Shown here in pieces: positions 49,382 through 61,189 of a DNA stretch of 64,000 nucleotides (the stretch's first letter is position 1; each line of letters starts with the position of its first letter). Origin of the DNA: Xestospongia bergquistia (Eukaryota > Porifera > Demospongiae > Haplosclerida > Petrosiidae); contig OZ014414.1 of NCBI GenBank assembly GCA_963965975.1, positions 9,109,230 through 9,173,229 of the forward strand. The letters are read 5' to 3'. Position numbers and translations under genes: made by a program. A model generated the notes under the pieces. It was not told where the DNA came from. It searched no databases and saw nothing but the letters and a program-made list of their open reading frames with translations.

Positions 49382-52300
49382 GTCATCTGATACTATTGAC
49401 AATCTAGTTAACACTGATCTATTAATTTGTATTTTGTGGAATGTTTTCTTAATAATTATTATTATTATTATTTAATTTTAAAATAGTTAATTAAACATAA
49501 TAGATGTCATATAATGAAAAGTATTAATATTGTTAGAGTAAAGTACCAGCTGCTGGTAATAACAATCAACTAATACAGGAACATCCCCCAATGAAGAGTT
49601 ACACTCTCTTGTCCTCCACTCAACTCCACCTACATTAGCAAAACCTCTCAAATGCTTTTTCCTGGATGTAATATGTCTTTGAGAACACTAGAAAAATAAA
49701 GAGGACATTGATAAAGAGAGAGATATAATACAACTAATACCAGTGACCACATAATAATGTACAAGTTAATAGTTTGTAATAAATACATTTTGTCACTAAA
49801 GAGATCAGTACAATCTCAGCTGCTTTCTCTTAAAGGCCATTACAATACTGACTGCTGTGACAAGGCCACTATTGAGTTACTAAAAGGATGTTCGTCATTT
49901 CTTTATAATAGTGAGAACACATGAATTAAATGAAATAGATCTAAAATGACAATGTTAAAGTGAACATTATTGTATTAAGTTAAAAAAAAAATTAAAGAGA
50001 AAATAAAAGTGAGCGAGAAGACAAATTAAGAATAAGCAACAAACTACTTACTAATACAAGAACACAAGTCTGTCTTTAATAACTTCATAACTATCTAACT
50101 TCTTACAATACTCTTCATGTTGTCTTGATAACCATAGTTTCCTTATTGTAGTATTTTTATTAAGTGATGTACATATTATCTTGATATCATCATTGTTTAG
50201 TGAAGTATTGTAAAGATATAGTGTTGTCAATGATGTAGTTGTTTGTATTAGATCTGCTATTGTACTGGTACTAACTGAAGTGATCTGAGGATTACGACTG
50301 ATATTTAACAAAGTCAATGTTTGGTTTTTAGTAAGTCCTTCACAGATATATCGGACTCCATTATCAGTGATGTTACAGTTGATGAGATATAGTTCTTTTA
50401 AAGTTGTATTACTTGATAACATAGTAGATAAGTGAGTTATATCTTCATCTGTGATATCAGTAACATTAGACAACCATAACTGTTCAAGTGTTTTATTATT
50501 AAAGAGACTATCACTGACTTGTTTGATACCACCAGTAAGTGAAGAGGACACCAGCACTAGTCTCTTTATTGTTTTATTAGTTTTTAGTATCTCTGATAAT
50601 ATCGATACACACTTACTGTCCAATGAAGTGTTGTATATCTCAAGTCTCTTCACTGTACACTTATTAAGATTGTTTATAATAACTGCAGTACTTTCAGGAG
50701 ATGATGAGAAGAGACGAATATTCCATTCTTTTCCTGTTTGTTGTTCTTTTATTAATTTACTTATAACATCTTCACTTTCTAATACAATTGGTCTATTGAG
50801 ACTAACACTATTGATAACATCATTCCAATGAACTCTTCCAGTGTCTCCTGTTATAAAACAGAGTTAGTATATAATATAGTACACACATAGTAATATATAC
50901 TATAACACATTACAATACACAGACAATACAATGAAGAAGAAACTGTTTACTGACTACGATTACTATAGCAATGAATTATAGGAGGCATGGTTTACTGTTA
51001 AATTTGAGTATGTTTGCTATAGACGAAAAATCCTATCATACTAACAAAACACTACTATATAATGGACTTCTGGTATATCAACTTAGTCTAATGAGATCAA
51101 CCCCTTTGCTTTGAGAGGAATTATCTGGTAGCCTATGATCTCATGTCTGACAAATTATTTTTATAGTTGAGTGTGACTAAAAACTGCTTTGATCTAATAC
51201 AGGATCTGCAAATGAATTATTCTTTAGACATTTCCTGTTTGAATATGAAATGTTTGTCCTTTCTTAAGTCAGTGATAAAATATAAAAGCTAGCTCATGTT
51301 TAATGGAGTCCTGGAGTCTAATACAAGGATTTATCTAACCTGGGATTAATGTAAAGAGTTACACTGAGTTCACCTACTCAAATTTTAATACAATAATACA
51401 GTTTAATCTACGGATTTAGTTGATCTGTATTTTCTTTGTACTGGATTTGCAGGTGTTAAAACATAAACTAGTGGGTGTTGATTACCTTGTTTAAATGTAA
51501 GTAAGGAAAAGATTTGATAAAAGAGTTTTGAGCATGTCTGGAAAGTCCCATCAATGTAGATTGGATAATGAAATTAGGTAAGTATTAAAACTCTTTGTAC
51601 ATTTTATAACAACTATCAATGAAAATTTTTAAAATTTCTATTAATTAGGATTATGGTATCTGTAGACAAAACTATACTATTGTATTAAAATTTGAGTAGA
51701 CAAACTCATCAAAACTCTTAATCCTATGATTGAACAATGGATGTGATTTAGGAATTATTATAAGATTGTTCTGTAATAATAAAGACTGAAGATTTATTAA
51801 TATATTAGTTAGTTTAATTCATTGTCTTTCTGACAATTCCAGTGTATGCCTGACATCTTTAAAATTAACAGTTAATTATCATTGATTTTGTGGTTTGAGA
51901 TATGAATATAATTAATAGACATCACTGATAATCATTATCAGTAATAACAGTGCAGTGATGAACAAAATCACATTAAAATACTTTAGATGATCAATTTACT
52001 ATTAAAATAGTACTACTACTGAGCACTAGTGATTATCACTATAAACCAGTTATTATTGTGATATAAGTGACCCAACTTTTTCAAGTATATCATCACATGT
52101 GGTTTAAGTTGTTAAAATATTGTACAATACTTATCATATACTCTACATATGATAAGTATTGTATATCATATAATACTAATATTGAAGAACATTAATTTAT
52201 TATATACTAAGTTATAATTATAATATAACCTACTTGGATGAGGTAAGGAACTCTCATCTTTATCATCAGCTGAATCCTTTAACTGATCTGTTAACTCTGA

Positions 52301-59800: not shown

Positions 59801-61189
59801 CTTCAACGAATCAAGATTTTCCTTTGCTGTCATCAACAAAAGGTCAATTAAACTTTGTGGAGCATAGCAGGTAACAATGATGGAGTTTCCTTCATTTACT
59901 GCTTTAACTTGTACTGACTTTGCCATATCTTTGAATGCTTTTGACAACAATCCTCTAATGTCAATAAGAGTGTACTTGTCAGCTTCCCACTCCAGAACGA
60001 ATACAATAGTCTCACAGGTAAGTTGATGAGAAGATGAAGAGATCGTGAAGCTCTGATTACAACATACATCAGCTTTGATCTTCTCACAAAATTCATCAAC
60101 TGATGTGTTGTAGTTTGTGATATGTACTTTAGCTTCAGTAATGTTAAATTGATCAACAATACCTTCCAAACAGCAAATGTTAATAATGATACATTTATCT
60201 TGTACAAGATCTATAACATCATCAAGTGATTCAGCTGTTGCTAACTGAGGTCTCAGTTCTCGGAAACATCTACGAAGATATGTTTTAAGGTCTTCCAGTG
60301 AAGGGATACCCTTAGCAATAAGAGGAGCAACAGTGAAAAAAAGTTTACCAAATTTCATTCTCATTTGATCAAAATCATATTGAAAAGTGGGTTGGAGATA
60401 TATTTGGGAGGGAAAAGTTTGATCTATAAATAAAACATTATAACTTGTATATATAGATATATATATAGTGGTACTTACCATACTCTTTGAGTATATCTTT
60501 AGCAACAGGTACTGTTTGTTCAGATTTTAATAAGACACTTGCAAACAATTTTAATTTGCTAGGATCTTCAGACACTGTAGTATGTAGTGCTCTCAATGGA
60601 TCATCTCCTAGTACACCTCCCAATCTATTGACTTCATCTAATGTCTCCTTAGAGATCACTCTCTCTGTATATAACATCTGAACAATCTCCACAGGAAGAG
60701 TAAGTGGTAAGATTCTATCAGAGTGTTTCAGTAACATTTGACAAGCTGGAGTAGATAACTCATCTGTTACAAGGTAAAGAGACAATGTATTACAAAACAT
60801 AAGATCACTAGTTCTCACTAAGTTCTTTTATTTGTTCAGCAGTGAAAACTTCTTCTATTGTCTTAAGAGAATCAGCTAATGAGTCCCACGTAGGACCTCC
60901 ACTTTCAGTCACCTTGTCGGCTTTACTCAACCACAAAGTTAAACATTCCTGAAGACAGCTCTCTGGATCATCTCGGTACTTGGTTCTAATGCTTGATAAA
61001 GTAGGTTGTAATAGACCCAGTTGTAGACCAAGAGGAGACCAACGATGGCTTGAGAAATAACCTTGTTTCAAAGCTTTAATGATATCTTTCAAATTACTAA
61101 CATCTATAATAACAATATAAAGAAATAGTAACAACTTAAAGTGAATACAATCAAGTTAACTCACTCAGTTCACTTTGATTTGTTTCCAT
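56882..61189 (-). CDS. Death/CARD-like/X/coiled-coil/LRR protein (copy 3), no PDZ
   Basis: Nine exons (61189-61165, 61103-60819, 60763-60479, 60423-59735, 59676-59559, 59468-59406, 59323-59186, 59141-58917, 57678-56882) join in frame to 874 aa. Domain order matches copy 2: METNQSEL first exon, Death domain, CARD-like, X, coiled coil, acidic linker, LRR. The LRR stretch compared (about 200 residues) differs from copy 2 at one residue (Arg for Pro) and the CARD-like domain at five or so. The X exon differs at about 80 of 229 residues. Exon 5 keeps the ATAG acceptor seen in copy 1. The same donor-like GTAAGT overlaps the stop, with a matching possible extra exon at 56528-56489. No NACHT, PDZ or transmembrane segment is seen. 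The function is inferred only from the domains. Confidence 0.85.

Follow-up and report, generated by a model that had tools for sequence, protein, structure and literature searches.

The three genes described here belong, in the reading that we hold to be rather probable, to a modular death-fold/LRR family in which old X types kept by purifying selection are re-combined and a young, diversifying LRR sensor is joined to signalling modules. The large exon X exists as old discrete types, which are shared by distant genes and have been shuffled from gene to gene, the switches falling close to either end of the exon. Copies 2 and 3 of the window (the whole 64-kb stretch of DNA analysed) carry types B and A, respectively, set in otherwise young sequence, and selection acting on X is on average purifying. 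Across 13 genes it is the LRR exon, not X, that is hypervariable, which the comparison of one pair of genes hid.

Results

Gene copies in the window

Three copies of one gene type, all on the minus strand, share the architecture Death - CARD-like - X - coiled coil - optional PDZ - LRR, each beginning with the Death-domain exon and the CARD-like exon, continuing with the single large exon X and short coiled-coil-like exons, and ending with a linker or PDZ exon followed by the LRR exon (Table 1). In a Pfam scan of window pieces neither the CARD-like exon of copy 2 had a match, so that its name is taken from an earlier sequence-only note on this DNA, nor did X of this copy have a family of its own. 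Searched by tblastn, the PDZ piece returned copy 1 only, with no match in copies 2 and 3. NACHT was found in none of the eight window pieces scanned with Pfam, a search that a split NACHT might escape, and the minus-strand stop-to-stop frames listed include none of at least 90 aa between the linker and the LRR exon of copy 2.

Table 1. Positions of the exons and of one intron in the three gene copies of the window
Feature	Position	Strand	Basis and remarks
Copy 2 Death-domain exon	54130..54414	-	Pfam PF00531, E 4e-6; splice sites by eye
Copy 2 CARD-like exon	53791..54075	-	94.8% identity with copy 3 over 96 residues
Copy 2 CARD-X intron, 50 nt	53741..53790	-	Mostly travels with X type
Copy 2 X exon, type B, predicted DED-like bundle and TRADD-N-like ferredoxin fold	53052..53740	-	Fold by way of alignment with copy 3
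Copy 2 coiled-coil-like exon 1	52876..52990	-	Sequence; splice sites by eye
Copy 2 coiled-coil-like exon 2	52723..52785	-	Sequence; splice sites by eye
Copy 2 coiled-coil-like exon 3	52503..52640	-	97.8% identity with copy 3 over 46 residues
Copy 2 polar linker exon	52234..52452	-	Sequence
Copy 2 LRR exon, candidate sensor	50051..50847	-	Pfam LRR_4 and LRR_6 just under cut-off; positive selection over 13 genes
Copy 3 Death-domain exon	60819..61103	-	96.4% identity with copy 2 over 84 residues; coordinates by offset
Copy 3 CARD-like exon	60479..60763	-	Comparison with copy 2
Copy 3 X exon, type A	59735..60423	-	PF13820, E 0.0086, below cut-off; nearest X are L003 and L004
Copy 3 LRR exon	56882..57678	-	One residue different from copy 2
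Copy 1 X exon, type D	6463..7148	-	Sequence comparison
Copy 1 CARD-like region	7193..7480	-	87.5% identity with copy 2
Copy 1 PDZ exon	5134..5415	-	PF00595, E 8e-6
Copy 1 LRR exon	3519..4313	-	85.6% identity with copy 2; pN/pS 1.8

Elsewhere in the window, apparent short-chain dehydrogenase gene segments (48300-49400 and 55100-56250, recognized by eye) are duplicated with copies 2 and 3, being mostly 0-3% apart save for one indel-rich spot near 48.5 kb with 21-33% divergence. A long array of 21/24-bp units (37084-39640) has frames open on both strands over about 790-820 codons; two further minisatellites have steps mostly of 40/33 and 20/24 bases (30543-31305 and 45883-46910), and short frames at 62952-63328 and 1820-2137 resemble, judged by eye from their translations, transposase or reverse-transcriptase remnants.

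Contrast between copies 2 and 3

The earlier note had placed X of these copies at 53740-53052 and 60423-59735 (minus strand), which proved exact, and its estimate of about 80 differing residues in 229 agrees with 81 in 232 aligned residues, as does its description of the other exons as nearly identical (5 of 96 residues differ in the CARD-like exon and 1 of 265 in the LRR exon). Sliding divergence amounts to 22-33% in windows inside X and mostly to 0-5% outside, so that the supposed confinement of the contrast to this exon holds for the sharp rise over X but not for the short CARD-X intron, which is unlike too, nor for the uneven flanks. The 5' edge of the contrast coincides with the end of the CARD exon and the 3' edge with the last ~35 nt of X, the next intron being alike; flank windows give 13-15% at the Death/CARD junction, 6-10% at 51.0-51.2 kb and about 0-1% on the LRR side.

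The attribution of both copies to "one recent duplication" is too simple, since within 560-1450 nt past X copy 3 differs by 2.5% from copy 2 but by only 1.2% from L053 and 1.8% from L003. Likewise, the motifs RRCFRELxPQL and DKC are indeed common to copies 1 and 3 and lacking in copy 2, but they represent the family consensus from which copy 2 departs, and hence their sharing is no sign of exchange between copies 1 and 3.

Nei-Gojobori counting for copies 2 and 3 yielded dN 0.22 and dS 1.14 for X (ω 0.19), with synonymous sites near saturation, against dS values of 0.20 for the Death, 0.10 for the CARD and 0.04 for the third coiled-coil exon. Since synonymous sites of X are as much out of line as the protein, and ω is 0.19, the difference is an old and constrained one, lying in younger surroundings, rather than a product of fast change. 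The earlier note had taken uniform synonymous divergence, or introns raised on both sides of X, as the mark of an old duplication partly homogenized elsewhere; dS and the upstream intron are raised together with X while the downstream intron is not, and this half-way outcome leaves room for a variant in which old X types were kept and their flanks homogenized.

Types of X and their re-combination

At least 152 X matches were found in the genome (146 Mb, 21 contigs). The 33 loci analysed comprise the three window copies, 26 of the 30 X loci fetched (copy 3 itself, L015, L023 and L028 being the other four) and four loci chosen by place or CARD similarity, the sample thus being weighted toward relatives of copy 3. 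Seven types (A-G) could be distinguished among these loci, besides four singletons (L016, L018, L020 and L029), with copy 3 and L003-L009 in type A, copy 2, L053, L052 and L054 (nearest X of copy 2) in type B, and copy 1, L027 and L055 in type D. Of the 528 pairs, 169 are less than 7% apart in the 560 nt after X with fewer than 100 gap columns, and X itself is bimodal among these 169, its difference exceeding 15% in 135 pairs and not exceeding 12% in 32. The X data reject copies 2 and 3 as a clade (ΔlnL 337, p 7.5e-60), as well as the sub-array of both copies with L053, L003 and L004 (ΔlnL 397); the reverse test is weaker, downstream data rejecting the A clade (p 0.0054) and not the B clade (p 0.062). 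X types combine with differing upstream and downstream clusters (single-linkage), types A and B each being found with the two main clusters on either side. The pattern recurs with types A and E in another array at C4 8.46-8.51 Mb, where X is 23-25% and downstream sequence 4-6% apart, the CARD exon there also differing by 12-14%.

A switch is directly visible in L053, which is of type D in its CARD exon, its intron and the initial ~40-80 nt of X, and continues as type B. The switch lies in or adjoins a stretch identical in L053, L027 and copies 1 and 2, with 1-2 differences in L052, copy 3 and L003, and the CARD-X intron of L053 is 2% off three D-type copies and 34-51% off its own X type. Together with the rejected clade of copies 2 and 3 and with types common to several arrays, this bears out the exchange of X with other family members that the earlier note had proposed.

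The intron mostly follows X: it differs by at most 20% in 47 of 57 within-type pairs (the ten exceptions involve L006 or L053) and by 25% or more in 343 of the 349 pairs that combine different types, copies 2 and 3 differing by 44.7%. Over its ~47 nt there is no mismatch (1-6 gap columns) between copy 3 and L009, L003 and L007, L010 and L012, and L012 and L019, same-type pairs with X and CARD exons 6-11% apart, while between types the intron is mostly unalignable. Another locus, L056 (C4:8953100-8961000), contains two X exons and two CC1 segments before one LRR.

An alternative of some but limited probability is that X never moved, and that conversion homogenized old A and B neighbours everywhere save in X, either blocked by its divergence or countered by selection protecting its diversity. 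Such homogenization would suit a ten-gene array in which the 560 nt following X differ by only 2-8% in all 45 pairs, irrespective of X type, and the zebrafish NLR-B30.2 genes, for which the available text of PMC4852459 describes homogenized and spared exons side by side. It would also suit the 91 pairs with similar flanks and unlike X, which share genes and are therefore not independent: their fitted right switch point lies in X in all 91 cases, 84 of them in the last 60 nt, and the left one in the CARD exon (84), the intron (4) or X (3). Against it stand the ~6.4 kb shared by copies 2 and 3 including 3' DNA beyond the gene, the mosaic of L053, and the short tracts into which within-type X differences are grouped for 37 of 57 pairs (by permutation, p<=0.02 with a floor of 0.005), a pattern to which uneven constraint could contribute; the last two indicate that X sequence does move. 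The exact donor of one such tract, in L025, was not found, D-type copies reaching only 83-86%. Movement of X and homogenization of surroundings around a spared X may both have occurred.

Somewhat less probable still is an ordinary paralogue difference, brought by unequal crossing-over with breakpoints on both sides of X and devoid of functional consequence. The edges of exchange do fall in conserved stretches, where homology is longest, but the recurrence of the same few X types in several arrays and ω of ~0.2-0.5 suggest that each type is maintained.

Selection on X and the neighbouring exons

Pooled pN/pS is 0.21 for Death (7 genes), 0.47 for CARD (12 genes), 0.34 for X, 0.74 for CC3 and 1.40 for LRR (13 genes each), these 13 being the genes closest to copy 2 among 19 LRR copies; pN exceeds pS in 0/21, 2/66, 0/78, 27/78 and 64/78 pairs, respectively. 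For X, model M8, fitted from several starts, is no better than M8a on 22 sequences, giving no positive selection (for the second half of X alone p is 0.052). The earlier idea that diversifying selection drove X apart after duplication accounts for the 81 differing residues but is highly improbable in view of near-saturated dS with low ω, equal fit of M8 and M8a, no pair with pN above pS, and X types common to genes megabases apart. In the CARD-like exon ω+ of 3 at ~7% of codons (M8 versus M8a, 21 sequences, p 3e-5) may reflect either selection or a recombination artefact.

Diversification and sharing of the LRR exon

For the LRR exon M8 versus M8a in our own implementation gave 2ΔlnL 323 with ω+ 15 at 11% of codons, accompanied by numeric warnings, and 338 with ω+ 12.7 once the numerics were clipped, compared with 0.4-1.0 on three control sets simulated without positive selection. 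Recombination can inflate such tests, but X, recombining too, gave no positive result. Of 23 selected sites, six precede the scored repeat span, one follows it and 16 lie inside; these 16 (>0.95) are all on concave strands and occupy 16 of 35 solvent positions, set on seven xxLxLxx strands from the LRR consensus, versus 0 of 143 others (Fisher 1.7e-13). Accordingly distributed are pN/pS values, with 2.71 at solvent positions, 0.32 in the core, 0.73 in the rest of the span and 1.79 before it; pairs with the more distant L006 give 0.5-0.7. Concave positions are rich in Y, W, N, D, S and E. The signature of a specificity-determining part, a role that the earlier note had tentatively given to X, is carried by the LRR exon.

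By synonymous sites this exon is young even among deep paralogues. The genome search for LRR gave at least 146 matches from 144 scored candidates, and an X is listed within 9 kb upstream of 38 of the 92 C4 LRR matches compared. In C4 genes LRR identity to copy 2 ranges over 66-100% and X identity to copy 3 over 42-100%, five genes combining LRR identity of 84-88% with X identity of only 42-46%. Two of these five (L056 and L057) and L058, chosen as an LRR without a listed X, were read in detail, and L058 does carry an X with 38% identity to that of copy 3. Compared with the window copies, LRR pS is 0.02-0.06 for all three loci, while it is 0.58-0.70 in X and 0.57-0.65 in CARD (L057, L058), CC1 (0.15-0.26) and CC3 (0.39-0.60) being intermediate. 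Low pS in LRR and saturation in X and CARD imply that deep paralogues have recently shared the LRR exon, which nevertheless varies at the positions where a ligand would be bound. Upstream of LRR the likeness fades: in four comparisons with window copies, the first 300 nt ahead of the exon differ by 10-34% and the next 300 nt farther upstream by 34-52%.

Predicted fold of X

In the window copies X stands as a single copy between the Death-like/CARD-like exons and a variable C-terminus (CC/PDZ/LRR). Structure modelling predicts a death-fold six-helix bundle followed by a second domain with the RRM/ferredoxin-like beta-alpha-beta-beta-alpha-beta fold, so that X would consist of a DED-like bundle and a TRADD-N-like ferredoxin-like domain. 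The PF13820 profile gives 16.3 bits (E 0.0086) with X of copy 3, below the curated cut-off of 22.5, has no match in copies 1 and 2, and matches weakly 14 of 95 relatives (best E 0.0032); the genome search with this profile gave no match, nor did control searches. PF01335 (DED) has no match in the window pieces, nor does it occur among the 25 of 50 families shown for the relatives, for which reason the first half is called DED-like only; its 12 genome matches, on C7, C8, C9 and C11, lie away from the X loci listed. Searching PDB sequences with the X profile revealed only weak similarity, to six chains that are without exception ribosomal uL30/L7 (lowest E 0.034); Foldseek returned 269 matches to the X model at E<=10 and none at <=0.001, and TRADD is absent among the best 50 structure matches of the second half. 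Residue S181, a candidate for the conserved interface Ser of the TRADD-N clade, is invariant in A2. The caspase-type profile PF00656 has 99 genome matches with dense runs at C11:6.28-6.47 Mb and C12:5.39-5.54 Mb.

Discussion

In the modular reading that we prefer, the LRR would be the sensor, spreading as a cassette, X would set the partner or assembly that the protein engages, and in copies 2 and 3 a single sensor would feed into two different signalling channels; X would be exchanged most simply by ectopic gene conversion or unequal crossing-over. According to the accessible part of PMC13012725, nucleation of death folds is pathway-specific and adaptors from sponges act in the same manner as those of humans; insulation between X channels is plausible in this light. 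A further, tentative step, to which we give only modest credence, would be germline combinatorial recognition in an early-branching animal, with a concave-diversifying LRR cassette running through more than 100 genes and placing any sensor onto any old insulated DED-TRADD-N channel, copies 2 and 3 exemplifying one sensor with two channels. Allorecognition or the sensing of symbionts might be the purpose of such a system.

Several known systems show parts of this arrangement. The NCOA6-clade TRADD-N expansion of Amphimedon (357 proteins; Kaur et al. 2021, PMC8195603), as described in the portion consulted, likewise has one to three Death-like domains, TRADD-N and a variable C-terminus (LRR after SH3, PDZ, others), and the same paper describes DED-TRADD-N pairs in cnidarians, bivalves and amphioxus. 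The words "exon" and "gene conversion" do not occur in its main text; exon-wise exchange, discrete types and selection on the LRR concave face are additions of the present work, whereas our profile match is sub-threshold. Zebrafish NLR-B30.2 genes resemble ours in that exons of one gene have different histories, the NACHT exon being homogenized within groups and the B30.2 exon across groups, with conversion deduced from dS (PMC4852459, in part); here, in contrast, no NACHT is seen, the spared exon is a death-fold/TRADD-N-like module by prediction, and the selected exon is LRR. In the Podospora het-d/het-e NWD family (PMC1805685, in part) recognition repeats are common to old clades, evolve in concert and bear positive selection at interaction-surface codons, and the LRR exon similarly combines surface-codon positive selection with homogenization of the rest; unlike that family it has LRR rather than WD40 and exchange at the level of exons, and it is not known to have a role in allorecognition. 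In the available text on the NLR repertoire of the sponge Dysidea avara (PMC12909245) TRADD does not occur.

Exon-specific conversion in immune families and concerted evolution with surface-restricted selection are thus already known, as far as the consulted parts of PMC4852459 and PMC1805685 go. Titles and abstract openings, many subscription papers being outside this scope, held no report of exon-wise TRADD-N/DED exchange or of LRR concave-face selection in sponges; what is new, relative to the literature searched, is the combination of opposite evolutionary modes of sensor and signalling exon in one death-fold/TRADD-N/LRR family.

LRR concave positions vary between receptors in lamprey VLR repertoires as well; here the variation is between germline copies, with no sign of somatic assembly. 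To our knowledge, allorecognition and symbiont-recognition genes of sponges are still poorly understood, which adds relevance to a family from this lineage. The puzzling single pair turns into a testable rule, namely that sensor exon and signalling exon of one gene evolve in opposite modes. If X types are insulated channels, they would form a naturally occurring collection of orthogonal death-fold modules and allow the origin of specificity between death-fold pathways to be tested directly, and the family may be considered as an animal counterpart to the fungal families of non-self recognition.
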